41,919 bases of DNA from IMG/VR virus record IMGVR_UViG_3300047332_000051, positions 1-41,919 of that record. One strand, written 5' to 3'. This DNA comes from a virus. The notes beneath the pieces were generated by a model. The model did not search any database. It saw nothing but the letters and a program-made list of their open reading frames with translations, and was not told the origin of the DNA. Shown here in pieces: positions 9,298 through 39,467 of the stretch; the first letter of the stretch is position 1; every line of letters starts with the position of its first letter. A program made the position numbers and the translations under genes.

Positions 9298-9313
9298 GCC
9301 GGGAGTCTAGCCT

Positions 9314-12711: not shown

Positions 12712-13295
12712 CATCCCGTCACAGGTGGAGCGCGCGAGCGGGATGGCTGTTGTACGCCATCCCGATCTTGTTGCTTTTCCTGGCGATCCTGGCCGCTCAA
12801 ACGCGCGCTCACGCCCAAATGTATCAGCCAGGAATTACTTCGCTATACGGCGACTGCACCGCGAGCGGAAATGGACCGACTCAGATCACGTGCACCAAAT
12901 CCAATGGCGTTCCAAACGGTTCCATGGCGAGCCAGAGCGCTGCAAATGTCGCGATAAGCGGCGGGTCAATCAGTGGTGCGGGGATTGTTGCGCCGACATT
13001 ATCGCTTTCAGGTCATTTTCTGAATACATCGGCCCTTACGCCAACGGTGTCTGGGTGTGGATCTGGCGCAAGCATCGCCGGAAACGACAATCGTTGGGTG
13101 CTGACGACGGGCGCTGGGCTTGGAACGTGCACGATCACTTTCGCCACGGCTTTTTCGGCCGCTCCCGTCTGTGTCGTAACCAGCAATACCACGGGTGAGA
13201 TCGCGGTGGTGACAGCGGTTTCCGCCACTAGCATTAGCGTCACGCTTACATCGTTGCTTTCTTCGGCGGTGATACGCGGGGTTTGCGTGGGCTAG
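12708..13295 (+). CDS. virion-region protein with N-terminal signal or anchor
   Basis: A 195-residue protein starting at ATG 12708 (ATGA overlap). Residues 1-34 look like a Sec signal peptide or membrane anchor: basic n-region (RHRWSARAG), hydrophobic core WLLYAIPILLLFLAILAA and an Ala-x-Ala site near AHAQ. The rest is Ser/Gly/Thr-rich with four cysteines in two pairs and beta-like character. A signal sequence inside a tail gene cluster is unusual; it may be a membrane or periplasmic protein rather than virion component. Function unknown. Confidence 0.6.
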   Translation: MTSRHRWSARAGWLLYAIPILLLFLAILAAQTRAHAQMYQPGITSLYGDCTASGNGPTQITCTKSNGVPNGSMASQSAANVAISGGSISGAGIVAPTLSLSGHFLNTSALTPTVSGCGSGASIAGNDNRWVLTTGAGLGTCTITFATAFSAAPVCVVTSNTTGEIAVVTAVSATSISVTLTSLLSSAVIRGVCVG

Positions 13296-13365
13296 GACTT
13301 GTCCTGAAATGGATTTGGCCATAGCTTGGCTGCGCCCGAAGGGCTCCCCGCATCGAGAGTGAGCC

Positions 13366-13554
13366 ATGGCTGAACGCGAAAAGCACTGGATTAAAAACGC
13401 CACCAAGAACAAGGGCGCGCTGCATAAGCGCCTCGGCGTTCCAAAGGGTGAGAAGATTCCCGCCAAGAAGCTGAAGAAGGCTGAAAAGGCGGGTGGCAAG
13501 CTAGGTAAAGAAGCTCGACTTGCCGAGACCCTCAAGGGCCTTCGCAAGAAGTAG
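13366..13554 (+). CDS. small, highly basic protein
   Basis: A 62-residue Lys-rich protein (starting MAEREKHWIKNATKNKGALH, then KRLGVPKGEKIPAKK) resembling short basic proteins found in tail regions of many phages; they are usually uncharacterised. The charge suggests nucleic-acid binding. GAGTGAGCC before ATG 13366 is a weak ribosome site. First of three small, very basic genes in a row. Confidence 0.65.
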   Translation: MAEREKHWIKNATKNKGALHKRLGVPKGEKIPAKKLKKAEKAGGKLGKEARLAETLKGLRKK

Positions 13555-13581
13555 TCCGAGAGTGCGGGGCTTGGCCCTGCG

Positions 13582-13597
13582 TCCCGGTCCACCGGGA
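13582..13597 (+). other. short perfect hairpin between two small basic genes
   Basis: TCCCGGT (13582-13588), two bases CC, then ACCGGGA (13591-13597): a GC-rich inverted repeat in the 97-base gap. No T-run follows, so it is not a standard terminator; possibly an RNA processing or stability element. Confidence 0.35.
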
Positions 13598-14224: not shown

Positions 14225-15631
14225 ATTCCCGATCTACCGCTCACGACGGGCAATTATGGCCGCCCCCGCGTAGGACTGCCGCCCGTCCGGCTGGTCAACG
14301 CCATTGTAGAGGCGTCTCAGGGCGGACCCTCCAAGGCCATACGCATTCCCAGGGCTGGAATGGATCTGGCCTACACGATCGGGACTGGGCCGATCTATCG
14401 CGAATTCCAGATCCAGGGCCTGTTTAACTCAGACCCATTTCACGTCTCGGGTGGGGAGCTGTATCGCGGCCAAACCGCGCTGGGTGGCGTGGCTTTCGGG
14501 ACTACGCCCCGCATGGCGGCGGCGAATGGATATTTGGCCATTGTCAATGGTGGAGGCCTGTTCGTCTATGACGGCACGACGCTTTCCCAGGTGCAATTTT
14601 TCGATGATGGCGTATCGCGCCTGCCAGCTTTCAGCTCGGTGGCGGTGCTCTACGATATCTTCATTTTTACGGTGCAGGGCTCGACGCAGTTTTTCTTCTC
14701 CGAGGTGGGAAACCCGACCGTCATCAACGCAGCCAATTTCTCCAATGCCCAAACCTCACCCGACCCGATCGTGGAAGTTGCGGTCCTGGCCGAAGAGCTG
14801 TATTTTTTCAAGGCCGCCAGGGCGGTAGAAATCTGGGACTACACCGGCCAGCTTACGGCCCCATTCGCCCTGTCGCAGGGACGCACCTATGCGCGCGGAT
14901 GTGGGGCGCAGAACTCGGTCCAGCTGCTGGACAATGGACTGTTCTGGGTCGGGGAGGACGCGACTGTCTATCGTTCTGGCTCCGTGCCCACCAGCATTAC
15001 CACGCCCTACATCGCCGATCGCCTGAAGGCGTGCGGCACGGCCCTGAGCCAGATCACGGCGCTGAACTACAATCTGGAAAACCACGTCCTGTACGTGCTG
15101 AACCTCACGCCGATTAACGAGAGCTATGCCTACGACTGCCAGACTAAGGAGTGGTCGGCCTGGGGGAGTCAGAATACCATCCAGGCGGAGCCGGCGGCCT
15201 ATCTGGCGGCATCGTCATGCGGCCAGGGGTCCACGATCTATTTCGGCTCGGCGCAGGATGGGCGGGTATGGACCGCAAACCCGTCTAGTCGCTTCGATGG
15301 AGATACGCCTATCCGCACGGTGGTGTCTGGAGCGATCTGGCTTGATGGAAACCGCATGCTTTGCGCCAACGTCATGCTGCAATGCTCGCGCGGCGTGGGC
15401 AATCCTGAGACGCCTAATCCGCTGATCCTGATGCGCTATAGCGACGATGAGGGCGACACGTGGTCATCCTGGCTTGAGCATAGCCTCGGGTCGCGCGGGC
15501 GCACCACGTACAAGGCGGTTTGGCGCGGCTTGGGCACGATGCAAAGTCCGGGTCGCCTGTTCGAGTTTGCCATCACTGATCCCGTGTCGTTCCGGGTGGA
15601 AAAGGCGACTTTCAACACGGCCTATCCATGA
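14225..15631 (+). CDS. gp10-like packaged-DNA stabilisation / tail hub protein, probable AUU start
   Basis: From AUU 14225 this is 468 residues, very close to P22 gp10 (472 residues), the tail hub that closes the portal after packaging. The first in-frame ATG is 14360 and would lose 45 residues, including a clearly coding stretch (PDLPLTTGNYGRPRVGLPP). No ATG, GTG or TTG lies in frame between TAA 14162 and 14360. GGAGAG at 14213-14218 sits six bases before AUU 14225. The body shows FNSDPFHVSGGELYRG, beta-propeller-like strands, and ATVYRSG/VLYVLNL segments typical of the family. Overlaps the tail fibre start (ATGA). The AUU start is inferred, not proven; CTG codons are possible alternatives. 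Confidence 0.75.
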   Translation: MPDLPLTTGNYGRPRVGLPPVRLVNAIVEASQGGPSKAIRIPRAGMDLAYTIGTGPIYREFQIQGLFNSDPFHVSGGELYRGQTALGGVAFGTTPRMAAANGYLAIVNGGGLFVYDGTTLSQVQFFDDGVSRLPAFSSVAVLYDIFIFTVQGSTQFFFSEVGNPTVINAANFSNAQTSPDPIVEVAVLAEELYFFKAARAVEIWDYTGQLTAPFALSQGRTYARGCGAQNSVQLLDNGLFWVGEDATVYRSGSVPTSITTPYIADRLKACGTALSQITALNYNLENHVLYVLNLTPINESYAYDCQTKEWSAWGSQNTIQAEPAAYLAASSCGQGSTIYFGSAQDGRVWTANPSSRFDGDTPIRTVVSGAIWLDGNRMLCANVMLQCSRGVGNPETPNPLILMRYSDDEGDTWSSWLEHSLGSRGRTTYKAVWRGLGTMQSPGRLFEFAITDPVSFRVEKATFNTAYP

Positions 15632-21401: not shown

Positions 21402-24104
21402 GTGGCCGATCCTCTCGACATTCCGGGAATGATCGTCTCCGAGGCGACGAGTCAGGGAGTCGACCCCTCGCTTGCGCTGTCGATCGGTCATGCCGAGAGC
21501 GGGTTCAATCCCAGCGCCCTCTCCCCCAAGGGGGGCATGGGCGTGATGCAGCTCATGCCAGGGACAGCCAAGGCGCTTGGGGTCGACCCCAGCGACGTGG
21601 CGCAGAACATCCATGGGGGAGTGAAGTACCTCAAGCAGCTGTCCGACCAGTTCGGGGGCGATCCGCAGCTGACCGCAGCGGCCTATAACGCCGGTCCTGG
21701 GGCCGTGCTGAAGCATGGCGGAGTTCCGCCCTACAAGGAGACGCAGAACTACGTCCAACGGGTGACGGGGCGTCCGGTCGTGTCGGGGGGTTACGATGCG
21801 TCCAATCAGGACGTGGGGCCTTCTGTTGACGCTATCTTGAAGATCGCTAACCAGACATCGGCCCCGGCCGCCACGCCCGCTCCGACCGCTGCATCGGCCG
21901 CACAGGAGCCAAGCGTAGACGATATCCTGAAGGCCGCGAACTTCACACCGCCAGCTCAAGCCGCCCAAGCTAAGCCGGACACGCCAGACATGGCGGCGGC
22001 GCGCAAGATGGTGTCCGGTGGTGGAAACTTCATCGAGGGGCTGAACACCGCGGCGAATGGCGCGCTCTTCGGTGCGGTTCCTGCGATCCAAGGTGGGCTG
22101 GCTGCGACCGCGACAGCGGGGCGTGGCGCGCTGCACGCCCTTGGACTAGCCCCTGCCGGTCCGTTCGCCAATCCGGGACAGGCCTATCAGGATGTGACCC
22201 GCGCCGCTCAGGAGCAGAGCCAAGCCTATGCCCAGGCACATCCCAATGCCTCGCTCGCCCTATCCGGCCTGGGGGCATTGACCGGGGCCTTTGCGGGGCC
22301 GGGCAAGATCGCGTTGGATGCAGCTGAGCAGGGTGTGGCGCATGTTTTGCCCTCAGCCATTCCGGCCGTGGCCGCCAAGGTGGTTCCCCGCATCGCGGCG
22401 CAAGCGGGACTCGGAGCGCTGTACGGCGTCGGCGAGGGAGTTTCGAACCAAGACACCCTAGGGAACGTCGCAAAGCGCGCGGCGACGGGTGCGGTGGTGC
22501 AGGGTGGCCTTGGGGCGGCGGGAGAGGCTGCGGCCCCGCTCCTTAGGACGGTTCCAACGACCGCCGGCCGCACGCTGGTCGGGGCTGGCGTCGGAGGTGC
22601 TCTTGGGAGCTTGGTCGGCTATCCTGTCGCCGGGGCGCTTGCGTTGGCCGGCGTTGGGGCTGGGACGGAGGGGCTGTCTCCCCTTACCGACGCTGCCCGT
22701 GTCAAGGCGGCCCCGGAGGCCCTATCGACCCTTCCCGATGCTGACATCGCCAAGATGCAGAACGCCCCCGAAGGGGCGCTTGCCGGGGAGGCGCTAGACG
22801 CGAAGGGCGAGAAGATCGTTGCTCGGGCGGCGACAGAAAACCCAGGTCTCGCGGATCGTATCCAGGCCGCGGTCGACACGCGCGATATCCAGGCTCCTGA
22901 GCGCATCAGTGGTCAGATTGCTCAGGCGACGGGGATTGCCCCCGAGACGGCCACTGCCGACGTTCAGTCCCAGGTGGACGCTCTGCGTAATGGTCCCGCG
23001 GCGTCGGCCTACGCCAAGGCGCTGACGGGAAAGGGAGTGTGGTCGGACGATATCGCCGAACAGTTCAAGAGCCCGGCAGTCCAAAAGGCCTACGGGAATG
23101 CGAAATATGAGCTTAGTACTCTGGGAAAGGACGCGGAGGTTCCGAACCCCAACTATACGCCCCAGCAAACCCAGACGGGCGCGCTGAAAGTCGACCCCGA
23201 AGTGTATCGCCAATGGCAGGCCGAAGGGTCGAATGATCCCGCGCGCTTGGCGGAAATGCAGAACGCAACCGTGAACGCCGGCCAGCCGCGCATGGTCCCG
23301 ACCGACGAGGCCTTGGATCTGACCCACCGCTATCTCCGAGACGGCTTCAACATGATGGAGCCGGCCTCGCGGCGCGTGGCGACCATCGCTTCGAACGCGT
23401 TCAAGGGCGCGATTGACGACGCCATTCCGGGGCTGGCGGACGCGCGGGCCAAGGCGGGTGACTACCTGTCCTATCAGGATGCCTACGAAAAAGGATCGTC
23501 GCTGATGGGGAATGGAAAAACCGCCGAGACGGAGCAGGCGTTCTCCAAGCGATTCGATGGCTTGACCCCCGCCGAGCAGCAAGCGACGAAATACGGGTTC
23601 ATGGCCGATCTCTACCGGCAGATCAACGGCGCGAACTTCAATCCCAACACCATCCTGAAGTCACCCAAGATTCATGGCGTCATGAGCAAGATGTTGACGC
23701 CGGATCAGATGGCCGCCGTCAACCGCGCCCTTCGGCAGCACGCCGCCCTTAAAGCGGCGTCAGGCCGCCTTGTGAAGGCGGCCACGCCCAAGTCTGGAGG
23801 CGAAGGGATCATGGAGGGGGCAATCATCGGTGGGGCGGATCATCCCAGCATTACGGGTGTGGTCGGCGGCGCGTTGTCGGGCCTGGGAACCAAGGCCGCA
23901 AAGAGCGCTTTCGCAAAGGGCCTTACCACGAAGGTTGGGCGGTCGGCCCTGGCGCATCTGATGGCTGAAGACGCTCGAACCGTGGGGCAGGCTGCGGCCT
24001 CAGCCAAGTCGGCCAAGGCCGCGCGGGCGGCGACGAAATCTCTTTCGCAGGTGACGCTCAGATCCGCTCTAGCTGGCGCAAACGGGCTCGGCGTCGGGCG
24101 CTGA
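21402..24104 (+). CDS. ejection protein with lytic transglycosylase (SLT) domain
   Basis: A 900-residue protein starting at GTG 21402. Residues 1-125 form a soluble lytic transglycosylase: SIGHAESGFNP with catalytic E32, KGGMGVMQLMPGTAKALG, and AAAYNAGPGAV, then ETQNYVQRV. This would open peptidoglycan during infection. After a Pro/Ala linker (about 140-200) follow repeated SVDAILKIAN/SVDDILKAAN motifs, hydrophobic Ala/Gly segments (about 280-300 and 395-430) that could insert in membrane, and a long helical region. Architecture matches T7 gp16-like/P22-like injection proteins. The 3' end overlaps a leftward gene by 47 bases. Confidence 0.82.
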   Translation: MADPLDIPGMIVSEATSQGVDPSLALSIGHAESGFNPSALSPKGGMGVMQLMPGTAKALGVDPSDVAQNIHGGVKYLKQLSDQFGGDPQLTAAAYNAGPGAVLKHGGVPPYKETQNYVQRVTGRPVVSGGYDASNQDVGPSVDAILKIANQTSAPAATPAPTAASAAQEPSVDDILKAANFTPPAQAAQAKPDTPDMAAARKMVSGGGNFIEGLNTAANGALFGAVPAIQGGLAATATAGRGALHALGLAPAGPFANPGQAYQDVTRAAQEQSQAYAQAHPNASLALSGLGALTGAFAGPGKIALDAAEQGVAHVLPSAIPAVAAKVVPRIAAQAGLGALYGVGEGVSNQDTLGNVAKRAATGAVVQGGLGAAGEAAAPLLRTVPTTAGRTLVGAGVGGALGSLVGYPVAGALALAGVGAGTEGLSPLTDAARVKAAPEALSTLPDADIAKMQNAPEGALAGEALDAKGEKIVARAATENPGLADRIQAAVDTRDIQAPERISGQIAQATGIAPETATADVQSQVDALRNGPAASAYAKALTGKGVWSDDIAEQFKSPAVQKAYGNAKYELSTLGKDAEVPNPNYTPQQTQTGALKVDPEVYRQWQAEGSNDPARLAEMQNATVNAGQPRMVPTDEALDLTHRYLRDGFNMMEPASRRVATIASNAFKGAIDDAIPGLADARAKAGDYLSYQDAYEKGSSLMGNGKTAETEQAFSKRFDGLTPAEQQATKYGFMADLYRQINGANFNPNTILKSPKIHGVMSKMLTPDQMAAVNRALRQHAALKAASGRLVKAATPKSGGEGIMEGAIIGGADHPSITGVVGGALSGLGTKAAKSAFAKGLTTKVGRSALAHLMAEDARTVGQAAASAKSAKAARAATKSLSQVTLRSALAGANGLGVGR

Positions 24105-24456
24105 CGATAAGCCCCCAGGCGGCGATCATGATCCCATAGACCACGGCGGGGATGTCGCCGAAAAGAACCAGCAGTGCGAGGGCCGGGGCGGAAAGGGTAA
24201 TGAAAATAAGCCACCACCGAATGTGGCCCCACAACCAGTCGCGAAAGTCCAGCATCCAATCCACAGGGTTGCGATACCACCTGTCGGGGCGAAGCAAGCC
24301 GAACAGAAACAGGGCGATGCACAGGGCGGCGGCGACGCCGAACAGGTGCTGAAAAGTGAAGAGGCTCACCCACCACGGCGGGTCGGGCGGAAGGGGGTGA
24401 TAGTCCCCCGCCGCTTGCGCCGCAGCCAGGATATCCTGGATGCTGGGATCGCTCAT
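24058..24456 (-). CDS. membrane protein, leftward pair (second gene)
   Basis: A 132-residue protein with three likely transmembrane segments (FGVAAALCIALFLFGLL, RWWLIFITLSAPALALLVLF and VVYGIMIAAWGLIVSA) and Trp-rich linkers (DPPWWVSLF). Starts with ATG overlapping the previous stop (ATGA). N-terminus has a SVDDILKAAN-like start (SIQDILAAAQAAG) similar to repeats in the SLT ejection protein next door. Transcribed against its neighbours, so probably an independently expressed accessory (moron) gene, for example affecting the host envelope or superinfection. Function unknown. Confidence 0.65.
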   Translation of the reverse strand: MSDPSIQDILAAAQAAGDYHPLPPDPPWWVSLFTFQHLFGVAAALCIALFLFGLLRPDRWYRNPVDWMLDFRDWLWGHIRWWLIFITLSAPALALLVLFGDIPAVVYGIMIAAWGLIVSARRRARLRQLERI

Positions 24457-24704
24457 TTCGGGCGATCCGCCTTCTTGACGTACGGGACGCCGTGTTCCGC
24501 CAGATAGGCGGCTTCGAATTCCTGCTCCTTCCGCTCGGCGACCAAATCGATGTGATCGGCCAGCTCGGCGGAATGGCTGGGATGTGCCGAGCCTTCTTCG
24601 AGCTGACGGCGCATCTTCTTGGCCACGGCGCGCAGATGAAAGGGCTTCTGGCCCTCGATCTCCACTGGACCGCCCTGGGATTCACTGTGGTAATGCGTGT
24701 GCAT
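24453..24704 (-). CDS. small hydrophilic protein, leftward pair (first gene)
   Basis: An 83-residue protein; AGGAGG five bases before ATG 24704. Starts with a His-rich MHTHYHSES, followed by a Lys/Arg-rich helix (FHLRAVAKKMRRQLEEG) and an acidic helix with HSAELADHIDLVAERKEQEF. No domain recognised. First in a two-gene leftward unit with its own promoter. Could be regulator or partner of the membrane protein encoded next. Confidence 0.6.
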   Translation of the reverse strand: MHTHYHSESQGGPVEIEGQKPFHLRAVAKKMRRQLEEGSAHPSHSAELADHIDLVAERKEQEFEAAYLAEHGVPYVKKADRPK

Positions 24705-24724
24705 GTCGTCCTCCTGATGTCTGA

Positions 24725-24753
24725 TATCTACCCCACGGTGTAATTCATGTCAA
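24725..24753 (-). promoter_or_regulatory. sigma70-type promoter for the leftward pair
   Basis: On the minus strand TTGACA (24753-24748), a 17-base spacer and TAGATA (24730-24725). Perfect -35 and correct spacing; the -10 matches the consensus in part. The predicted start of transcription (around 24718) lies just before the AGGAGG site and ATG 24704. Confidence 0.65.
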
Positions 24754-24769
24754 CATACTTCGCATTACA
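24739..24769. promoter_or_regulatory. operator-like element A, TGTAAT-N19-ATTACA
   Basis: TGTAAT (24739-24744) and ATTACA (24764-24769) form a 6-base inverted repeat separated by 19 bases and bracketing the -35 box of the leftward promoter. Within 29 bases, 23 positions are identical to element B (32684-32712), including an 11-base core TGTCAACATAC. Likely operator for a phage regulator; the regulator is not identified. Confidence 0.55.
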
Positions 24770-24871
24770 TAGCGCGGACCTTTCCAGGGACGCGGTTTTC
24801 CGTCAAATTGCGCCCTGACCGGGGGCCACCGAAGGTGCGCCACGTCCTCCGCAAGCTCATGGATCGCCCCG

Positions 24872-28411: not shown

Positions 28412-28744
28412 CTAGCCCGCAGGTTGAGAGATGGGCTTCTTTTCGTGCGGTGCGGCGCTGGTGGCCATGTTCAGGGTTAGAACGTGGTTGGAGAGCGCGA
28501 GCATACCCTTCGGGGTGATGGCGTAGAGTTTCGACTCTCGCAATTGGTCCTGGCCGCCGCGAGGCTGGATTTCGACCCAGCCTTTGGCTGGCTTGGCCAT
28601 GCGTCGAAGGGTTATGGAGTGATGGCTACCGTCCATGGCCCCGATGTCCATTGGGCGGACGAATCGGCTCTCCCGCTCCTCGCGCTCGGCGGCGAAGTGC
28701 ATGTAGCGCAGAGCGCGCAGGATGTCGTATTCACGCGGCGTCAT
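28412..28744 (-). CDS. winged-helix-like small protein
   Basis: A 110-residue protein. ATG 28744 with GGAGGA upstream is used; the upstream extension lacks a ribosome site. TPREYDILRALRYMHFAAE and the later LYAITPKGMLALSNHVL look like the first helix and wing/end helix of a MarR/PadR-like winged helix (the K-LYAIT-KG-ALS motif is typical). Also MDIGAMDGSHHSITLRRMAK. Likely DNA-binding regulator; last gene of the leftward block. Confidence 0.6.
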   Translation of the reverse strand: MTPREYDILRALRYMHFAAEREERESRFVRPMDIGAMDGSHHSITLRRMAKPAKGWVEIQPRGGQDQLRESKLYAITPKGMLALSNHVLTLNMATSAAPHEKKPISQPAG

Positions 28745-29075
28745 CGGACTTCCTCCTTGGGGGCTGGACCTCGATCGCGGAGAAGCGGGCGTAGCGCTGG
28801 CGAATGGCCCACGGGCTGAGCCAGGACTTTCGGGACTCGCGTTGCTGGATATCTTCCTGCCGAAACTCGCGAGCCATCCGGCACATGAGCGTCCAGGCAT
28901 GCAATAGCGTGGCGGCCGAACGGTCGTAGCGGATGGCCATGAACATATCGTAGATCATGGTCCCGCGCGTCGCGCGCCGGTTGTTGAAGTTTTTGCGGCA
29001 GGGCGTGCCGCAGAATTCGTCCATGTTGCTGCGGGGCTTAAAGGAGCGTCCGCACTCCCTGCACGAACGGTTCAT
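28731..29075 (-). CDS. zinc-finger protein, phage type
   Basis: A 114-residue protein. The N-terminus has CRECGRSF and FCGTPCRKNFNNRRATRG, a C2C2 zinc finger followed by a conserved F-N-N-RR and MIYDMFMAIRYDR block. Proteins with this exact architecture are common in phages of alphaproteobacteria, with unknown role. GGAG before ATG. Overlaps the adjacent genes on both sides by 4-14 bases. Confidence 0.65.
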   Translation of the reverse strand: MNRSCRECGRSFKPRSNMDEFCGTPCRKNFNNRRATRGTMIYDMFMAIRYDRSAATLLHAWTLMCRMAREFRQEDIQQRESRKSWLSPWAIRQRYARFSAIEVQPPRRKSDDAA

Positions 29076-29452
29076 TTGCGGCGCTCCACGGTTCCATCCA
29101 TCTTCTTGCGCAGGCTGCGGTCAAAGCCCCGAGTCTTAAGCTTCCGCTTAGGCTCCGGGCGATCGGAATCGTGCTTTTTCCAGATGCGCTTGACCTTGGC
29201 GCGCGCGGTGGCGTCGGCGGCCGTCTTCAGCTTGTTGCAGGGGTCGGCGTGGATCGGGGCTATCGCCTCGTTGGCGTCGGAACCCTTCATCCAGAGTTGC
29301 GTCACGTGGTCGTAGATCACGCTTGGGCCATCCACCGCCACCGGCTGGCGGCAGAAGTAGCAGACGCCTTTCCAGGAATCCCAGATCCTGCGCTTGCGGG
29401 CGGGCGTCATGGCTCGGCGCGGATCGGCTTGGAAGTCGCCCGGCTCGCTCAC
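29072..29452 (-). CDS. HNH endonuclease-like protein
   Basis: A 126-residue protein starting GTG 29452 (GTGA overlap). It shows a CYFCRQP zinc pair, YDHVTQLWMKGSD with the HNH histidine and APIHADPCNKLKTAAD with the second Asn/His. It resembles the short HNH endonucleases located in recombination regions of phages. Possible DNA nicking or cleavage; the C-terminal tail is basic (KRKLKTRGFDRSLRKKMDG) and would bind DNA. Confidence 0.7.
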   Translation of the reverse strand: MSEPGDFQADPRRAMTPARKRRIWDSWKGVCYFCRQPVAVDGPSVIYDHVTQLWMKGSDANEAIAPIHADPCNKLKTAADATARAKVKRIWKKHDSDRPEPKRKLKTRGFDRSLRKKMDGTVERRK

Positions 29453-29703
29453 AGCAATCCATCCACAAGGTCTCGCGCCCGCTCCATCAGGGCGGATATC
29501 CGACCCAGTTCGTCGCGAACCTGGGGCGTCGTCTGCCCGGCGAGCACTTCATGGGTGGTGAACTTGGTTTTGCAGCCCAGGCACAGCCGGCGTCGGCGAA
29601 TGCGGTCCTGAGCCTCGACGCCGCGCGAGTCCTTCACGTCGGAGAAGGGGTGGCTGCAATTGGGGCATTTGATGGCGTTGGGGAATATGCGGCTATCGCT
29701 CAT
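29449..29703 (-). CDS. NrdR-type zinc-ribbon protein without ATP cone
   Basis: An 84-residue protein. It carries CPNC (13-16), VKDSRGVE, IRRRRLCLGC (Cys 41 and 44) and KFTTHEV. That order is the zinc-ribbon DNA-binding domain of NrdR, the repressor of ribonucleotide reductase genes: CP-C, DSR, RRRR-C-C, RFTT-E. The nucleotide-sensing ATP-cone domain that follows in full-length NrdR (about 150 residues) is replaced by a short helix (RDELGRISALMERARDLVDG). It may bind NrdR boxes without dATP control. AAGGAG before ATG 29703. Confidence 0.72.
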   Translation of the reverse strand: MSDSRIFPNAIKCPNCSHPFSDVKDSRGVEAQDRIRRRRLCLGCKTKFTTHEVLAGQTTPQVRDELGRISALMERARDLVDGLL

Positions 29704-30158
29704 CGCGAGGGCTCCTTCATCTCGCCGGCTAAGATGCGGTCAAGTTCCTTGCGGGCCGCGTTAGCCAGGGCGGGGCCGAACTTGTTTCCGGCCACGGTCA
29801 GGGCCTTGTCCATGAAGTCGTTGAAATCGGGCTGCGACAGCTTGTTGATGGCGATCGACATGGGAGAATACTGATAGCTTCCGTCCGCCAGCAAAATGAT
29901 GCGGCGGTGACCCGCGCCGACCTTGAGCACGCGATCCACATCCTCCTTGGTCAACTCGGCGTGCTCGGACTCGAAGTTGTCGGCGATGATCCCGCACACC
30001 ACCCAATACAGGGCGAGTTGGCTCATGGAGCGTTTACGACCGCCTTGGGTCATGCGCACCGTGAAGCTCTCGCCTTCCTGGGCGGCCAGGGTCTCGGCGT
30101 CCAGCGCGCTCGCGCCCACCAGATGGCCGTTCTCCACCTTGCAAATGATCTCGATCAT
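29700..30158 (-). CDS. DUF1367-like / NinB-like phage protein
   Basis: A 152-residue protein. GRKRSMSQLALYWVVCGIIA, then TKEDVDRVLKVGAGH, and later YSPMSIAINKLSQPDFNDFM followed by DKALTVAGNKFG, resemble the layout of DUF1367-type proteins encoded beside recombination genes. The K-S-I-S-F-x-M-x-Q-D-E-F motif of that group is partly matched. Possible recombination accessory; catalysis not evident. GAGG before ATG 30158. Confidence 0.5.
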   Translation of the reverse strand: MIEIICKVENGHLVGASALDAETLAAQEGESFTVRMTQGGRKRSMSQLALYWVVCGIIADNFESEHAELTKEDVDRVLKVGAGHRRIILLADGSYQYSPMSIAINKLSQPDFNDFMDKALTVAGNKFGPALANAARKELDRILAGEMKEPSR

Positions 30159-30169
30159 CGCCGCCGACC

Positions 30170-31054
30170 TCAGAAGGGAACGTCAGGGCCGGGCGCGCCG
30201 TTTGCGCCGCCTTTTTCCATTTCCTCCCACTCCCATTTTCGCACCTGATCGAGGTGCTTGGCATATTCCTCGCGTAGGGAATTTTGCCAATTGCGGGTCA
30301 GGGTTGCGATCTTGGACTTGTGCGCGTGCGCCCATGCTTCCAGGGACTCTTCCGTGCGCTGCGCCCGCATGGAGCCGGTCAGATACTCCCAATCGCCGTC
30401 CTTCTTGGACTGGGAGCTCGACTTGCGCCCGCCATAGGCCTGATCCGTGCGGGCTTGTTGCTGGGGGCGGTTCTGACCCGACCGCTGGTTGTAGTGGTCA
30501 TCCGCCTGTTGGTTCGAGGCCTGGACGGAGCTGTATTGCGCCGTGGGATAGTCGGCGTCCCCTTCGGCGCTCAGACCTTCGGTCGGGATGCAGAAGGTTT
30601 GAATCGCCATATATTTGTAGGCGTTGGACATGGCCTTGGCGGTGGCCTTGTCGCTGTAGTCCGCTCCCTCGCTGACAACAGTGGCGACGTGAACCGATCC
30701 GTCGAGCGCGGACTTGAACTCGTAGTCCATCTCGATCACCACCGAGAACATCAGCCCGCCCTTGGTGGTCTGGTGGACGGAACGCTCGATCACCTTCCTG
30801 AACCGGGGTGTGATGATCAGCTTTGCGTCGGCGATCTCCGACGACAGGGCGTTGAGCACGTCGTCGATACCGCGGAAATTATACTTCTGCTGCTCGTTGC
30901 GGTGCGCCTTGGCGATTCCGTCCTCGCTGAACTGCGTGGTGATCGCGTGCATCGCCCAAATGACATGGGGGACCTCACCGCTCGCATGCGGAGCTTCATA
31001 GGGGCCGGTGACCTCGCCGGTCTCGGCGTCGATCGTTTCGTTCTCGGTGTTCAT
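30170..31054 (-). CDS. erf: ERF-family single-strand annealing recombinase
   Basis: A 294-residue protein; ATG 31054 with AAGG upstream. Residues 25-150 follow the ERF core: HVIWAMHAITTQFSEDGIAK, NFRGIDDVLNALSSEIAD, LIITPRFRKV, then GADYSDKATAKAMSNAYKYM. The variable C-terminal part is Gln/Ser-rich linker then Trp-rich helices (WEYLTGSMRAQ...). ERF of P22 anneals homologous DNA and circularises the genome. Acting with the coiled-coil protein upstream, it would support recombination-dependent replication or repair of packaged genomes. Overlaps the HNH gene start (ATGA). Confidence 0.82.
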   Translation of the reverse strand: MNTENETIDAETGEVTGPYEAPHASGEVPHVIWAMHAITTQFSEDGIAKAHRNEQQKYNFRGIDDVLNALSSEIADAKLIITPRFRKVIERSVHQTTKGGLMFSVVIEMDYEFKSALDGSVHVATVVSEGADYSDKATAKAMSNAYKYMAIQTFCIPTEGLSAEGDADYPTAQYSSVQASNQQADDHYNQRSGQNRPQQQARTDQAYGGRKSSSQSKKDGDWEYLTGSMRAQRTEESLEAWAHAHKSKIATLTRNWQNSLREEYAKHLDQVRKWEWEEMEKGGANGAPGPDVPF

Positions 31055-31422
31055 TTTCGGGACCTTTTGAAGTGAATGGGGTGAGTGATGCAAGCGTGAG
31101 TCCCAGCGGCGATCTGATGGGCGACGTTCTCGCGCTGGGTGACGAAATCGATGTGGTCGGGGTGAACGCACCAACTGATGTTGCAGCGATGCGCCCCAAC
31201 TTCGCTGTAGGATCGAGACTTGAGCGGCGCGCCCTTGAACAGGGCCGGGGAAACGTGGTGCGCCTTGCGCATCTTGCCGACGATCCAGAACTTGCCGTAG
31301 GGACGTCCTGGACCGCCATCAGATCCAGACCATAACCAGCACCCGCCGAACGGATCGAACTGAACCCTGGCCATGAACCTGGGTAGGGCCTCAGCGATCT
31401 GTTCGGGGGTGAGGAAGGTCAC
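31051..31422 (-). CDS. HNH endonuclease (homing-type)
   Basis: A 123-residue protein. Pattern of HNH_3-type enzymes: GCWLWSGSDG, YGKFWIVGKMRKAHHVSPA, AHRCNISWCVHPDHIDFV, then TQRENV. HR-C...W-C-HP-H contains the HNH ligands. Starts at GTG 31422 with weak ribosome site. It lies between the coiled-coil gene and erf, overlapping erf by ATGA, so it may be an inserted homing-type gene that became part of the operon. Confidence 0.72.
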   Translation of the reverse strand: MTFLTPEQIAEALPRFMARVQFDPFGGCWLWSGSDGGPGRPYGKFWIVGKMRKAHHVSPALFKGAPLKSRSYSEVGAHRCNISWCVHPDHIDFVTQRENVAHQIAAGTHACITHPIHFKRSRK

Positions 31423-31426
31423 GCGA

Positions 31427-32197
31427 CTAGACGGCTTGCTGCTTGCTGACGGCCTCCGCCCCAGGGATGACGGCTTGACCCTTGGTGGCGCGCATCTCGG
31501 CGGAGGCCAGCTTAAGGGCCGCCTCGATCATCTCGGCGCGCTTGGCGTAGTGGCGGACCAGCTTGGGGCCGTCGATCGCCTTGGCGCTCCAGGTGACCCG
31601 TAGGCTTGCGGCCCTGCCAAAGCCGGTCAGGCTACCGATCGAGGGGCGAGCGGCGGCCATTTGCTGGGCATGGTGGGCGGTGATTTCCGCAACCTCGGCG
31701 GCGTGCTCCGCGTCTTCCGCGTCCATGGCGTCGAAGACGTGGCCGGACTGCGCCGCCGCCTGCTTGGTGGCGAGCGCTTCATCCTCCAACGCCTTGGCCT
31801 TGCGGATGGCTTCGGCCGCTTCCAGTTCGCGCTTGCGCTGCTGGGCCGACAGGTAAGCCGTGAGGATGGACCTGCACTTCACCTTCACGCTCTCAGCGCG
31901 CGAGGACAGGGGGCGGAACAGCCCCTTGATGCGGGCAATTTCGTCCTCGAACTCTTTGCGCTCGGCGCGCTCGGCGAGGTCTAATTCGCCCACCTTTTCA
32001 TGCGCTTTCTGGCCTAGATCCTTGATCTGGGCCGCCTGGAGTTCGGTCAATTCAGTCGCCCAATCGACCATCTCAACGCCATCGGGGATTTTGGCCAGCT
32101 TGAGCAACTCACGCTCAAGCGTGGCGGCTCCGTCCTCATGCATGGCCATGGAGTTGGAGCCAATGCGCAGCAGCGGGGGAAGGGTGGTTTCGGTCAT
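31427..32197 (-). CDS. coiled-coil phage recombination-region protein
   Basis: A 256-residue protein; AAGGAG before ATG 32197. Residues about 50-180 are a long charged coiled coil (ELDLAERAERKEFEDEIARI..., RKRELEAAEAIRKAKALEDE). The C-terminal domain (SLRVTWSAKAIDGPKLVRHY, LKLASAEMRA, IPGAEA) recurs in proteins encoded beside ERF or Bet recombinases in prophages. Probably an accessory of the annealing protein, though its activity is not known. Confidence 0.65.
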   Translation of the reverse strand: MTETTLPPLLRIGSNSMAMHEDGAATLERELLKLAKIPDGVEMVDWATELTELQAAQIKDLGQKAHEKVGELDLAERAERKEFEDEIARIKGLFRPLSSRAESVKVKCRSILTAYLSAQQRKRELEAAEAIRKAKALEDEALATKQAAAQSGHVFDAMDAEDAEHAAEVAEITAHHAQQMAAARPSIGSLTGFGRAASLRVTWSAKAIDGPKLVRHYAKRAEMIEAALKLASAEMRATKGQAVIPGAEAVSKQQAV

Positions 32198-32230
32198 AGT
32201 CAGGTCTCCTTGGGAAAGGCGGGTTTAAGA

Positions 32231-32479
32231 TCAACGCTTGTGCGCCAGGGCGAGGTGATAGGCCTCCATCCGCTCCTTGCGGACCTGACGGGCCAGCTCG
32301 GATTCGGAGCTCATGGAAATGTCATGATCAATTCCAGCCAAGCGATAGCTTTCAATCGCATAGTCCAGACGCCTTTCGGCTTCCTTGCGCGAAAGAACCT
32401 CGGCCACGCCGCCGGAAATGACGACGACACCGTAATCCTGCGTCGGATAGATCTGATGCTTTTCGTTGAGGTCAATCAC
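32231..32479 (-). CDS. small hypothetical protein
   Basis: An 82-residue protein starting at GTG 32479 (GTGA with the upstream stop); a longer in-frame start at 32530 would overlap the upstream gene more. Sequence: IDLNEKHQIYPTQDYGVVVI, then GGVAEVLSRKEAERRLDYA with an acidic helix, and REKRMEAYHLA-type end. No domain recognised. Second gene of the leftward block. Confidence 0.5.
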   Translation of the reverse strand: MIDLNEKHQIYPTQDYGVVVISGGVAEVLSRKEAERRLDYAIESYRLAGIDHDISMSSESELARQVRKERMEAYHLALAHKR

Positions 32480-32643
32480 AGCTTCAGCCCCATTTCCTTG
32501 TAAATCGGCTCCAGTTGAGCACGTAGCCACGCCATGTTCTCATGATAGAGCGACCGCTTTGGACCGGACAGACGCGACAGTAAGCCTTGTACTTCCGCCT
32601 TACCGGCGGGGGTGTTGTCGAAAACGATAGCCTTGTTGGCCAT
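32476..32643 (-). CDS. first gene of the leftward block, 55 residues
   Basis: A small protein (MANKAIVFDNTPAGKAEVQG..., ending AQLEPIYKEMGLKL). CAGGAG eight bases before ATG 32643. No recognised domain. Start is directly downstream of the minus-strand promoter in the shared 32.67-32.70 kb region, so it should be the earliest translated of the leftward genes. Confidence 0.5.
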   Translation of the reverse strand: MANKAIVFDNTPAGKAEVQGLLSRLSGPKRSLYHENMAWLRAQLEPIYKEMGLKL

Positions 32644-32668
32644 GTGGGCAGCTCCTGAAAACAAGGAC

Positions 32669-32700
32669 AAATTGACAGGTGTGGTAATTGGTGTCAACAT
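32669..32700. promoter_or_regulatory. face-to-face divergent promoters
   Basis: Rightward: TTGACA (32672-32677), 17-base spacer, CAACAT (32695-32700). Leftward: TTGACA (32697-32692), 17-base spacer, CAATTT (32674-32669). The two perfect -35 boxes are an inverted repeat with 14 bases between them, so each promoter's -10 overlaps the other's -35. They should compete for RNA polymerase, acting as a switch between leftward recombination genes and rightward regulator/replication genes. The -10 boxes are weak, suggesting dependence on an activator. Confidence 0.6.
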
Positions 32701-32713
32701 ACATTCTATTACT
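32683..32713. promoter_or_regulatory. operator-like element B, GGTAAT-N19-ATTACT
   Basis: GGTAAT (32683-32688) and ATTACT (32708-32713) with 19 bases between, including the same 11-base core TGTCAACATAC as element A at identical spacing. It overlaps the leftward -35, so a bound protein could control both directions. Confidence 0.55.
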
Positions 32714-32726
32714 CAGGAGAAGGAAT

Positions 32727-32912
32727 TTGACCTACGAAAAGAGCCTGCCGGACTGGCGAAACTACCTCACGCCCGAAGAGGGCGAACAGGTGGATGAGAT
32801 TGAGAGCGCCATAGCCTTGGCGTCCACCGAGATTCAGCAGCGGCGCGGCAGGCTGTTGCGGATCAGAAACCGCGCCGGGCTGCGCAAGTATCGCGCCTCC
32901 AGGGGGGAATGA
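32727..32912 (+). CDS. first rightward early gene, TTG start
   Basis: A 61-residue protein. TTG 32727 has AGGAG with ideal spacing; the upstream in-frame GTG at 32688 lies in the promoter. Reads TYEKSLPDWRNYLTPEEGEQ, then a long helix (VDEIESAIALASTEIQQRRG). No known domain, perhaps a small regulator. The stop overlaps the next start (ATGA). Confidence 0.6.
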   Translation: MTYEKSLPDWRNYLTPEEGEQVDEIESAIALASTEIQQRRGRLLRIRNRAGLRKYRASRGE

Positions 32913-33370
32913 GCATGAAAAAGGGATCGCACACGCCGGCCCTCTGGGCTGAAATTTCCGAGGCGGATTTCCGCCAGCTTGTGACCGCGCATTTTTCGGC
33001 TGTGGAGTTATCGCGCGCTACGGGCCTATCAGAGGCTCAGTTGATTCGCCGCCTGAAGGTAATAGGTTTGGGATCAACTGGTGAGCGGGTGAAATTCGAG
33101 CGCGCGTGGCTGATCTCTGGCGGAGTTGTCAGGCGAGAGAATTTTTTAGGAACAATGATTTGGCGCGACGCTGGCCATAATCATCTGCACGATTTCGATG
33201 TCGATTACATGGAGGCCATGTTGAACGAGGGATTTCTGCAACGCCATCCATCCCAGATCGAGGAATTATACGTACATGTCAAAAACGACGAAAAACCGAA
33301 GCCGATCCGCCGTAGTGGTCAAGACGATGAAGGTGGGCGGGGGCGGCTATCTGGTGTTGTGCAAGCTTGA
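32909..33370 (+). CDS. helix-turn-helix regulator
   Basis: A 153-residue protein. An early HTH is visible at about residues 20-50 (DFRQLVTAHFSAVELSRATG followed by LSEAQLIRRLKVIGL). The rest has no clear domain. Its last 30 codons overlap the next gene in another frame over 95 bases; third-position GC falls in this part and codon quality favours the other frame, so the C-terminus may be a recent extension. Probably transcription regulator. Confidence 0.6.
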   Translation: MSMKKGSHTPALWAEISEADFRQLVTAHFSAVELSRATGLSEAQLIRRLKVIGLGSTGERVKFERAWLISGGVVRRENFLGTMIWRDAGHNHLHDFDVDYMEAMLNEGFLQRHPSQIEELYVHVKNDEKPKPIRRSGQDDEGGRGRLSGVVQA

Positions 33371-33476
33371 GGGTAGTCCCAAAGGCATGGCCTCAATCAT
33401 TATCGATCACGAACCGGAAAACGGCGAGCGCCTGATTATCTCCGAGATTGGACCCAATGCGTGGAGGCTGGCTTGA
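33276..33476 (+). CDS. small hypothetical protein with large overlap
   Basis: A 66-residue protein from ATG 33276 (GAGG upstream, somewhat distant). Lys-rich N-terminus, then KVGGGGYLVLCKLEGSPKGM and DHEPENGERLIISEIG, mainly beta. It overlaps the end of the helix-turn-helix gene by 95 bases and is coupled to the next gene by TTGA overlap. Function unknown. Confidence 0.5.
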   Translation: MSKTTKNRSRSAVVVKTMKVGGGGYLVLCKLEGSPKGMASIIIDHEPENGERLIISEIGPNAWRLA

Positions 33477-33838
33477 CCCCGTTGCCGCAGGACCTGAAAT
33501 CGGCGCATCAGGAAATCATCAAGCTTCGGCGTCAGCTTGAGCCCAGCGATCCCGAGCGCGCGCGCCGGATCGCCGCCAGGTTCCGCATCTCCCCGCAAGC
33601 TGGAATGGTGTTGCTTGTGATCGCCGAGCGCGGGGCTGGGCGGCCCATCGATTCGGTGAAGCTGAGAGGTCGAGTGCTAAGGGTGAACGGCGACGGCGGG
33701 ATTTCCAAGGTGCACCTGAAGGTGCTGATCTGCCATATCCGAGCCGCCTGTGGCGCGAACATGATCGTCAGCTCGGGCCGCGGCTATTGGATGGATGCGA
33801 AGTCGAGCGAACGCATCCTGAAGATCGCCAATGGCTGA
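33473..33838 (+). CDS. orphan OmpR/PhoB-type winged-helix DNA-binding domain
   Basis: A 121-residue protein. TTG 33473 is chosen because GGAGG precedes it by five bases and it overlaps the previous stop; GTG 33461 is less likely. Residues 36-110 resemble the effector domain of response regulators: FRISPQAGMVLLVIAERGAG, RPIDSVKLRGRVLR, KVHLKVLICHIRAACGANMI and VSSGRGYWMD (compare I-x-T-V-R-G-x-GY). There is no receiver domain and the N-terminus is a short helix. Likely transcription activator in the early region. Confidence 0.65.
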   Translation: MTPLPQDLKSAHQEIIKLRRQLEPSDPERARRIAARFRISPQAGMVLLVIAERGAGRPIDSVKLRGRVLRVNGDGGISKVHLKVLICHIRAACGANMIVSSGRGYWMDAKSSERILKIANG

Positions 33839-34223
33839 GCCGGACCCTATCGACTCCAACATCGGCCGCCTGATCCGTGTGCGCAGGCTGCAAATCAATA
33901 TGAGCATGTCCGAGCTTGGCCGGCGCATCGGCGTGACCGCGGCCCAGATGCACAAGTATGAGATGGCCCAGGATCGCGTTTGGGCGGCCGGGCTCTACAA
34001 GATCGCCCGTATCCTTAACGTGGAGGTGGCCTACTTCTATGGAGGGTATAAGCGCTTCGCCCTCTCGGGCGACGCCAGCGTCATGGAGGACTATGCCGCG
34101 GCGGCTGAGGCCATGTTTCTGGCCCCGGAGCTTGAGGCGCTCCCCAGGTTCACGGAGCCGCAAATCCAGGCTGTGCGGGCGATGCTGAGGGCTATGGACC
34201 CTGGCTTGCCAAGCGTTGCCTGA
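33831..34223 (+). CDS. XRE-family transcription regulator
   Basis: A 130-residue protein overlapping the previous gene by eight bases. The HTH (about residues 11-65) is classic: GRLIRVRRLQINMSMSELGR, RIGVTAAQMHKYEMAQDRVW, KIARILNVEVAYFYGG. The C-terminal part is acidic helical. No self-cleavage (S24) domain, so it is not a lambda CI-type repressor; more like Cro or host-regulator type. Candidate binder of the palindromic elements at 24.74, 32.68 and 36.82 kb. Confidence 0.8.
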   Translation: MAEPDPIDSNIGRLIRVRRLQINMSMSELGRRIGVTAAQMHKYEMAQDRVWAAGLYKIARILNVEVAYFYGGYKRFALSGDASVMEDYAAAAEAMFLAPELEALPRFTEPQIQAVRAMLRAMDPGLPSVA

Positions 34224-35589: not shown

Positions 35590-35820
35590 ATGACGAAGAT
35601 GACCAACCACCCGAACCGCAGCCAGTCCGTCCGCAAGCAGGCTCAGGCCCTGGGCTACTATATCCGCGAGGGGTCCTACCAAGGTACGACGGATGATCGG
35701 CTGGGCCGCTGGTACTACGGCCATGAAAGCGATGAGTTTTTCCGCCCCTATGGAGCTGGCTATCGTACCCAGCGGGAAGCGTGGACTGCTGCGCTGGAAG
35801 ATGCCGCGCTGCACGCGTGA
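35590..35820 (+). CDS. small hypothetical protein
   Basis: A 76-residue protein; ATG 35590 follows AGGGG at close spacing; an alternative ATG is three codons later, and an in-frame GTG at 35527 lies in the putative promoter. Sequence: RSQSVRKQAQALGYYIREGS, then LGRWYYGHESDEFFRPYGAG and YRTQREAWTAALEDAA. Tyr/Gly-rich middle. Overlaps the transposase-like gene by GTGA. Function unknown. Confidence 0.55.
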   Translation: MTKMTNHPNRSQSVRKQAQALGYYIREGSYQGTTDDRLGRWYYGHESDEFFRPYGAGYRTQREAWTAALEDAALHA

Positions 35821-36320
35821 TTATAACCTCGCTGGTCTCAATCTATCGCCGCTTTCCGAATCGGGAGGCGGCGACTGTGCATTTGGAAACCGTCCGTTGG
35901 CCGGGCGGCCCGATCTGCCCTTACTGCGCCAGTCCCAAGGCCTCCGCCAATCGGGACGCCTCGCGCAACCTGACCGACCGCCGCTGGCAATGTCAGGCGT
36001 GTAGTCGATCCTACAGCGTCACGGTTGGGACGATTTTCCACAAATCGCACGTCGATCTACAGCGTTGGTTCCTGCTGATCGCCCTCATGCTCAACGCCAA
36101 GAAGGGGCTTTCCAGTCTCCAGGCGGCTCGCGATCTTGAGATGCGCCAACCGACTGTTTGGTCTATGATGCAGCGCGTTCGGGACGCCATGGGCCGCGAC
36201 GAAAAAGAAATTCTCCGCGGCCTGGTCGAGATGGATGAGGCCTATGTTGGCGGCAAGCCGCGTAAGCCGAATGAGCGCGACGACGACACTCCACCAGCTC
36301 CGCGTGGGCGCGCGACGTAA
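35817..36320 (+). pseudogene. truncated IS1595-type transposase (N-terminal part)
   Basis: A 167-residue reading frame from GTG 35817. It contains an IS1595/ISXO2 N-terminus: RRFPNREAATVHLETVRWPG, zinc ribbon C34/C37/C59/C62 (CPYC and CQAC), SVTVGTIFHKSHVDLQRWFL, the HTH (LQAARDLEMRQPTVWSMMQR) and the first catalytic Asp, D140 (VEMDEAYVGGKPRKPN). It then stops after about 26 more residues, so the remaining DDE core is missing. No terminal inverted repeats are visible. Instead the start is coupled to the preceding gene and coding quality is maintained, so it may have been kept as a DNA-binding protein rather than a dead relic. A leftward gene ends nine bases further on. Confidence 0.72.
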
Positions 36321-36328
36321 TGTGAAGC

Positions 36329-36481
36329 TCAACACATTTCGGCGTTTTCGTCAATCGCGTCCGCCATCCATTCGATGCCCCAGATGCTCAGGAGTCTGCA
36401 CAGGTTGTCGGCCTGGGTCTCATTGGGAAAGTATCGGGCGAAAATGCCCTTAGGCGTGATCCACCACACGACGAATTTCAT
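36329..36481 (-). CDS. 50-residue protein, third gene of the leftward trio
   Basis: ATG 36481 with GGGAG upstream; start overlaps the previous stop (ATGA). Product MKFVVWWITPKGIFARYFPN..., ending WMADAIDENAEMC; Trp-rich, soluble-looking. No known domain. Ends nine bases from the truncated transposase. Confidence 0.55.
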   Translation of the reverse strand: MKFVVWWITPKGIFARYFPNETQADNLCRLLSIWGIEWMADAIDENAEMC

Positions 36482-36606
36482 AGCGGAACTCCCAGGTAGG
36501 CGATCACTCCGAGGGCGACCAGAGCTGCGGCGGACCAGATCCAGAGCGCGTAGCGCGGGTGCCGAGGCGGCTCCGGGGTCCAGTTGAGATTCAGTGGCGT
36601 GGACAT
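36478..36606 (-). CDS. 42-residue single-pass membrane protein, second gene of the trio
   Basis: ATG 36606 overlaps the previous stop (ATGA). A Pro-rich N-terminus (MSTPLNLNWTPEPPRHPRYA) precedes one clear transmembrane segment (LWIWSAAALVALGVIAYLGV, about 21-40). Too short for automatic gene finders. Could anchor a partner at the inner membrane or act as a small toxin; no direct evidence. Confidence 0.55.
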   Translation of the reverse strand: MSTPLNLNWTPEPPRHPRYALWIWSAAALVALGVIAYLGVPL

Positions 36607-36803
36607 CATCCCCAAGCCCCGGCGGCTTCGGCGTGACCCATGTACCATCCGGCATATTTCAGGCGGTCTTCCTGGCTCTCAGCCGCATCATAGGCTAGCT
36701 CATACACCTTTATCCATTCCGATTGGGGGAGCTGCCGAACATGAAAGCCACAGGCGATGCGAACGTTCACATCGTGATGGCGGGAAAGGTGGTGATCAAA
36801 CAT
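36606..36803 (-). CDS. 65-residue protein, first gene of the leftward trio
   Basis: ATG 36803 with ACGGAGG upstream; upstream in-frame start codons lie in the operator. Product opens MFDHHLSRHHDVNVRIACGF, His-rich, followed by WIKVYELAYDAAESQEDRLK and YAGWYMGHAEAAGAWG. Might bind metal; no known family. It is coupled to the membrane protein gene, and the three should be co-expressed. Confidence 0.55.
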   Translation of the reverse strand: MFDHHLSRHHDVNVRIACGFHVRQLPQSEWIKVYELAYDAAESQEDRLKYAGWYMGHAEAAGAWG

Positions 36804-36818
36804 GGGTTGGCCTCCGTC

Positions 36819-36839
36819 TGTAATCATAAACGTATTACA
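36819..36839. promoter_or_regulatory. operator-like element C, TGTAAT-N9-ATTACA
   Basis: A perfect 6-base inverted repeat: TGTAAT (36819-36824) and ATTACA (36834-36839) with nine bases between, covering the -10 and start-of-transcription region of the leftward trio. It has the same half-sites as element A, with spacing ten bases (one helical turn) shorter. Confidence 0.55.
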
Positions 36840-36857
36840 TTGACCTCGCCGCGTCAA
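36829..36857 (-). promoter_or_regulatory. promoter for the leftward trio
   Basis: Minus-strand TTGACG (36857-36852), 17-base spacer, TACGTT (36834-36829). The -35 lies 54 bases before ATG 36803, the same distance as the leftward promoter at element B to its gene. TTGAC/GTCAA (36840-36857) also forms a face-to-face inverted repeat. The -10 is weak and covered by element C. Confidence 0.5.
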
Positions 36858-36898
36858 TAGGACATGCGGAAAATATACGCTCGCTACGTTTTATCGGC

Positions 36899-36935
36899 TT
36901 TTCAGCCGGTGCGATTCGGGTATCAATAGCGCCCA
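36899..36935 (+). promoter_or_regulatory. candidate promoter giving a leaderless message
   Basis: TTTTCA (36899-36904), 16-base spacer, TATCAAT (36921-36927), ATG at 36935. The predicted transcription start lies within two or three bases of the ATG, and no ribosome site is visible. Leaderless messages are known in Caulobacter and other alphaproteobacteria. Confidence 0.4.
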
Positions 36936-37210
36936 TGGTTACAGGTGCGGAACAGGCGGTGGCGCTCAAGAGCGCCTTGGTGCAGCTCGGAGCGCTTTAC
37001 GGGCTCAATCGGCCGCTGCGTCCATCCGAGTTGGGCCGGGCGTTGCGACTGTCGGAAACCGATCCGGGTAAGTCGGTCCGCGACTGGCTGGCGGGACACG
37101 GTATTCCAGGCCCGGCGGCCGTGGCGGTGGACATGATGCTTTATGGCGTCGTGCCTCCAGACGGTCTTGACAACATACTGACTCGGAAGAGGAAGACGCG
37201 AAATGCTTAG
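36935..37210 (+). CDS. helix-turn-helix-like regulator, possibly leaderless
   Basis: A 91-residue protein. ALYGLNRPLRPSELGRALRL, then SETDPGKSVRDWLAGHGIPG and VDMMLYGVVPPDG, looks like a small HTH protein in which the recognition helix is near SVRDWLAGHG, like plasmid/phage Cro-like regulators. Divergently transcribed from the leftward trio, it may be its regulator. Ends with a basic tail (TRKRKTRNA). Overlaps the next gene by eight bases. Confidence 0.6.
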   Translation: MVTGAEQAVALKSALVQLGALYGLNRPLRPSELGRALRLSETDPGKSVRDWLAGHGIPGPAAVAVDMMLYGVVPPDGLDNILTRKRKTRNA

Positions 37211-39270: not shown

Positions 39271-39467
39271 TCAGGTTCATTGTTAGGCGAGACAACGCCA
39301 ACATGGCCGCAAATGTCGGTGGCGCAGTCCTTACTACAATGCACACCGTTGACGCTGATGTTCCCGAGTTAGAGCGCATCCTTGTTAGTGGGGGCGTGAG
39401 CGAGATTTCCTTCGAGCACACTCAGCTCATCGGCGCTGAAATCCTCATCAAGGACCCCACCCAATGA
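39267..39467 (+). CDS. small hypothetical protein
   Basis: A 66-residue protein, GTG 39267 (GTGA overlap). Alternates strands and helices: MIRFIVRRDNANMAANVGGA, DVPELERILVSGGVSE, FEHTQLIGAEILI. Size and pattern recall small phage proteins of ferredoxin-like fold. Function unknown. Confidence 0.5.
   Translation: MIRFIVRRDNANMAANVGGAVLTTMHTVDADVPELERILVSGGVSEISFEHTQLIGAEILIKDPTQ

Follow-up and report, generated by a model that had tools for sequence, protein, structure and literature searches.

Do short inverted repeats scattered over a phage genome mark a single regulon? The question is raised by three elements in the 41,919-nucleotide virus record IMGVR_UViG_3300047332_000051 (analysed here over its full length and referred to as the window), noticed in a first-pass annotation as a shared element at all three leftward operons. 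We found the elements to be present as described: element A (24739–24769, TGTAATTCATGTCAACATACTTCGCATTACA) and element B (32683–32713, GGTAATTGGTGTCAACATACATTCTATTACT), each of 31 bp, and element C (36819–36839, TGTAATCATAAACGTATTACA), a 21-bp dyad, all assigned to the leftward (−) strand. Comparison of their sequences and positions across related phages suggests that A, B and C are probably operators of one phage-encoded dimeric DNA-binding protein, which would repress by promoter occlusion.

Each element lies in a divergent gap between a leftward and a rightward gene, at 24705–24871 (A), 32644–32726 (B) and 36804–36934 (C). Leftward units start at exactly these three gaps, so that the description as all three leftward operons was correct; the frame at 13008–13592, considered as a fourth leftward unit, was discarded, being the shadow of a rightward frame that is better conserved. 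Downstream of A is an accessory pair on the (−) strand, the first gene encoding an 83-aa protein (24453–24704), matched by a similar small protein at this slot in two related phages (G021 and G028), and the second a 132-aa protein with about three hydrophobic segments (24058–24456). Element B stands between the leftward early/recombination operon (28412–32643, −), which encodes an ERF-type annealing protein, an NrdR-type zinc ribbon and an endonuclease VII-like protein, among others, and a rightward operon of which the first gene (32727–32912, +) has a 33%-identical counterpart beside the corresponding G021 site. The NrdR-type zinc-ribbon protein (29449–29703) is a stand-alone protein of 84 aa, with a similar small protein in G028. 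Element C precedes a leftward group of tiny genes (36329–36803, −), beside which is a truncated IS1595/ISXO2-type transposase (35781–36320) comprising only the zinc ribbon and the start of the DDE domain. Elsewhere in the window, the head gene cluster includes a GroES-like co-chaperonin (5681–6133; Pfam Cpn10, PHROG 3188) that is conserved in relatives, and the protein encoded at 39464–40174 contains a long Ala/Trp/Arg-rich repeat tract (AAWAAGAAARAA...).

Elements A and B have the form GTAAT-N19-ATTAC and C the form GTAAT-N9-ATTAC. The window contains three dyads of the general form GTAAT-N(0–30)-ATTAC, compared with 0.16 expected, and all three are A, B and C; for gaps of 9 and 19 alone, 0.005 dyads would be expected. 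In shuffles of the individual gaps, such a dyad arose with P = 0.003 (A), 0.002 (B) and 0.014 (C). A motif search of the whole window, which bears on whether the motif occurs as often at random positions as at promoters, returned matches only at the three divergent gaps, and allowing one arm mismatch added none. The agreement of A with B at 23 positions was likewise recovered, counted in the 31-bp frame, and an unsupervised dyad-pair search given no motif placed A/B first among the pairs in the window. Taken alone, the best-dyad-pair statistic is ordinary (13 extra matches, versus a mean of 10.1 and a maximum of 14 in simulated genomes), and the motifs of A and B show modest symmetry, with 8 and 7 of 15 pairs, respectively, matching over the 31-bp frame and 5 and 4 of 11 within the core. 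The strength of the case is in the position of the sites and in the relative G021 rather than in the size of the pair match: chance could account for the latter, but fails to explain why both G021 members sit in two equivalent gaps.

Read on the leftward strand, A is TGTAATGCGAAGTATGTTGACATGAATTACA and B is AGTAATAGAATGTATGTTGACACCAATTACC. Alignment of all sites reveals a recurring core, a dyad of approximately 22 bp with the pattern TGTMA-N11/12-TKACA (written after the sites had been seen), which spans 22 bp in A (24748–24769, TGTAATGCGAAGTATGTTGACA) and B (32692–32713, AGTAATAGAATGTATGTTGACA; one outer base off the strict pattern) and 21 bp in C (leftward strand, TGTAATACGTTTATGATTACA). The outer N19 dyad consists of the first half-site paired with a third half-site (ATTAC; 24739–24744 in A and 32683–32688 in B) just downstream of the −35 hexamer. 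The helical-turn spacing proposed at first pass stands in part: C is ten bases shorter if the outer half-sites are paired, but relative to the inner A/B half-site it is only one base shorter (21 versus 22 bp). A and B may each hold two bound dimers, or one dimer with a flanking contact; the sequence fits either.

A consensus reading places predicted leftward promoters at all three elements. TTGACA, a perfect −35 hexamer, occurs inside both A (24748–24753, −) and B (32692–32697, −), 49 and 54 nt upstream of the respective leftward start codons. At A, the predicted −35 is followed after N17 by TAGATA (24730–24725), a Shine–Dalgarno-like AGGAGG and the ATG at 24704. At B, the candidate −10 at N17 (CAATTT) is weak and the leftward start is, for this reason, uncertain; B is also directly upstream of, and abuts, the Shine–Dalgarno-like site of the rightward operon. 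At C, the predicted promoter (36829–36857, −) comprises TTGACG (36857–36852), N17 and TACGTT (36834–36829), and the dyad overlaps the predicted −10/start region. The promoters predicted at A, B and C were absent from the list of an automatic sigma-70 scan that required a near-consensus −10. Judged by sequence, a dyad is repeated at several phage promoters and overlaps their core elements, as is characteristic of early-promoter operators. A translational operator at C was also considered and dropped, the RNA hairpin there being no more stable than those of shuffled sequences.

An arrangement of this kind could also serve activation. Lambda CII is an activator that straddles the −35 hexamer, and a protein acting as CII does, turning the leftward promoters on, would account for the half-sites that flank the hexamer and for the poor −10 hexamers at B in both the window and G021, as in activator-dependent promoters. 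The −35 hexamers, however, are perfect, which is unusual for promoters of that class, A has a better −10, and at C the dyad lies over the −10/start region, a position from which an activator would block. We therefore regard activation as unlikely, although it is the alternative that fares best; repression, like the promoter assignments themselves, is our inference.

Searches with the terminase and capsid proteins identified many relatives, of which G021 and G028 have the early region in common with the window. In G021 (IMGVR_UViG_3300049617_000033; 82% capsid identity to the window), TGTCAACATAAAAATGATGACA stands in the gap that precedes the leftward recombination operon, and TGTMA-N11/12-TKACA has exactly two matches in 39.6 kb. 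One (14812–14833), at the leftward recombination operon, is the equivalent of B; the other (9278–9299), the equivalent of A, is located between the tail-fibre gene (a homologue of window gene 24872) and a leftward accessory operon that occupies the same tail-module slot as the pair at 24058–24704. The A-equivalent was found by a half-site-plus-core scan run before the tail region was inspected, where it first emerged, scoring at the threshold. For TGTCA-N12-TGACA with up to one mismatch, 0.26 matches would be expected in the 20-kb G021 piece, and the two exact sites are the sole matches; an unsupervised dyad-pair search in G021 returned only the 9278/14812 pair. Among the other 25 relatives, TGTMA-N11/12-TKACA gave two isolated matches in all, in two genomes. 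Within the rightward early operon of G021, a SocA/Panacea antitoxin-domain gene (L161:15833–16417) runs leftward.

The two G021 cores (TGTCACCATTTGTCTATTGACA at the A-equivalent and TGTCATCATTTTTATGTTGACA at the B-equivalent) resemble one another more than they resemble their counterparts. Within a phage, core identity is 17/22 for window A and B and 18/22 for the G021 pair, whereas between counterparts it is lower, at 13/22 (A–A) and 15/22 (B–B); at the offset of the third half-site, ATTAC in window A and B, the G021 A-equivalent has AGACA. On this comparison, the sites of each phage have changed in concert, as would be expected if they follow a changing regulator. Element C has no counterpart in G021, and among the relatives G021 alone has this type of site. 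Conservation in related phages, one of the checks to which the first-pass reading was open, is borne out in this one relative by the matched sites at equivalent promoters. The matched pair at two equivalent leftward operons of G021 supports the proposal that a single phage regulon spans the leftward units; the regulators named with it are candidates.

The likeness of A and B might alternatively reflect promoter ancestry, the accessory cassette having recently gained a copy of the B promoter that does not act as an operator. Their longest common substring (TATGTTGACA) does take in the −35 hexamer, and its length alone is within the range of shuffles. But the half-sites are preserved exactly on both flanks of the −35, and at C the dyad occurs without the −35. 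The pair at the two equivalent loci of G021, matched yet different in sequence, would need independent copying in each phage; we consider such an origin improbable.

Accessory control seems to persist in a different guise in G028 (IMGVR_UViG_3300049215_000323), which has no A/B/C-type operator. There, a different leader, TTGTCTTTTGAAGGAGGAC, recurs in three exact copies (L163: 4779–4797, 11092–11110 and 11977–11995; 0.00 expected), shared by the two equivalent leftward units and a further leftward one, and the first two units also have TGTCCATNATCGG in common around their −10. Because part of this leader is a ribosome-binding site, its function may differ. The small accessory protein of G028 is related to that of G021 (E = 4e-11) and weakly to that of the window, and the accessory operon has the same slot and orientation in all three phages. 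It thus seems that this operon has been retained, along with the control it shares with the early leftward operon, while the regulatory sequence was replaced. Beside the tail-fibre gene, each of the three phages encodes, leftward, a small soluble protein and then small membrane proteins (window 24058–24704; L161:8649–9225; L163:11681–12753).

Beyond these two relatives, the signal is sparse. The A/B DNA pattern had one match among all viral contigs, in a coding region of an unrelated AT-rich phage, and blastn of the A region against phages gave none. Searches of viral contigs with the 24453, 36935 and 31427 proteins singly returned no close relatives. In 20 terminase-relative records, the motif at gaps of 9–19 was absent save for one AT-rich chance match, and no counterpart of the 31427 protein was found; further alignment-based searches returned G021 and G028 again and no others. 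A search of papers for TGTAAT/ATTACA palindromes found none. Other relatives have repeated dyads of their own, at 12361 and 13029 in G019 (AGTCGGAAATTTCCGACT-type) and at 2487 and 2765 in G036 (L180; CGCGGGANCCCATATCCCGCG), possibly operators of different regulators.

Which protein might bind the sites? The rightward operon that starts at B encodes the foremost candidates. One is an XRE/Cro-CI helix-turn-helix (HTH) protein (33831–34223, +; Pfam HTH_3) of the alphaproteobacterial PraR/TgrL type, with relatives in the window, G021 and G028; its best phage relatives are in Agrobacterium, Caulobacter, Brevundimonas and Sinorhizobium phages, a group that includes TgrL of phage phiCbK, an XRE early phage regulator that mostly represses (PMC10688885). 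A search of genome contigs with it returned no match. Its recognition helix is very different in the window and in G021, although their sites are alike, and the PraR consensus TTGCAA (PMC4149787) is absent from all three gaps. The second gene of the same operon encodes an HTH-like candidate (32909–33370, +) with an N-terminal tri-helical segment in a low-confidence model (pLDDT 50). Its counterpart is in the same place in G021 (27%) and none was detected in G028, a distribution that fits that of this type of site. A winged-helix candidate (33461–33838, +), assigned to the OmpR/CtrA C-terminal type because it resembles its counterpart in G028, gave no meaningful match in a PDB sequence search.

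The first-pass annotation had named both the XRE protein and the gene at 36935 as possible regulators. The latter, a small all-helical protein encoded upstream of terS (36935–37210, +) and conserved in G021 and G028, is now the least supported: it stands beside terS in phages without element C, with no site upstream in G021 and no such operator in G028, and its low-confidence model matched neither a PDB entry nor a DNA-binding protein. The XRE protein, with relatives in all three phages, keeps its place. We infer that the XRE protein or the HTH-like product of 32909, both from the operon starting at B, should be considered first. The proteins scanned, which represent part of the ORFs of a contig that may be incomplete, included neither an integrase nor a cleavable CI-type repressor, and so gave no support for a lysogenic switch.

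Relatives occur in Phenylobacterium and Sphingomonas contigs, which, together with the PraR/TgrL-type XRE protein, points to a host that is probably an alphaproteobacterium. That a host regulator exploited by the phage, instead of a phage protein, binds the sites is very improbable: phage and host XRE proteins of the PraR/TgrL type do bind overlapping sites (PMC10688885), but the sites here differ between related phages yet match within each, which a fast-changing phage regulator fits better, and the gaps lack TTGCAA.

In the mechanism that we propose, a dimer of the phage regulator would recognize the core dyad TGTMA-N11/12-TKACA. At A and B, the inner half-site would coincide with the leftward −35 hexamer, the third half-site following just downstream; at C, the bound dyad would cover the −10/start region. 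RNA polymerase would in each case be kept off the leftward promoter, and three units would thereby be switched jointly: the recombination operon, the tail-module operon with the accessory membrane protein, and the group of tiny genes. The rightward operon at B would probably be switched too, as B abuts its leader.

More tentatively, and with the balance somewhat against it, this phage family may use a co-evolving operator to tie a tail-module accessory pair (a small soluble protein and a membrane protein) to the early leftward promoter, the three phages having kept the linkage and replaced the regulatory sequence while regulator and sites turn over together. If these proposals are true, they define a small regulon of a phage that is uncultivated and probably infects an alphaproteobacterium, and link a conserved accessory pair to early gene control. 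Shared control would suggest that the pair acts early and not in virion assembly; exclusion and membrane modification are examples of such a role. The match within phages and divergence between them would provide a natural data set for the co-evolution of regulator and operator.

Compared with known systems, the sites resemble the CI/Cro operators of lambdoid phages: symmetric sites at divergent early promoters overlap the −35 or −10, HTH genes are in the adjacent operon, and sites that match one another within a phage shift in sequence from that phage to its relatives. Unlike those operators, the dyads here are single rather than triple, are found also at a tail-module accessory operon and a tiny-gene unit, and are accompanied by no integrase or CI-type repressor among the proteins scanned. 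The stoperators of cluster A mycobacteriophages are asymmetric sites of about 13 bp, present in 20–30 copies, that stop transcription. As with stoperators, sites for one regulator would be dispersed over the genome and co-vary with the phage group; here, in contrast, there are three symmetric dyads, all at promoters, rather than many dispersed asymmetric sites. The Caulobacter RtrC motif lies over the −10/−35 in repressed promoters (PMC9648850), and is similar as a promoter-occluding dyad, but the protein and motif are unrelated. With PraR/CdxA/RtrA and phiCbK TgrL, the link is that the best phage matches of the XRE protein are in phages of that group's hosts; its recognition helix differs, as does the site (TTGCAA; PMC4149787). 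Collectively, the set adds a good new example to a known kind of control rather than founding a new kind, and its less usual feature is the tie of the early promoter to a conserved accessory pair within the tail module.
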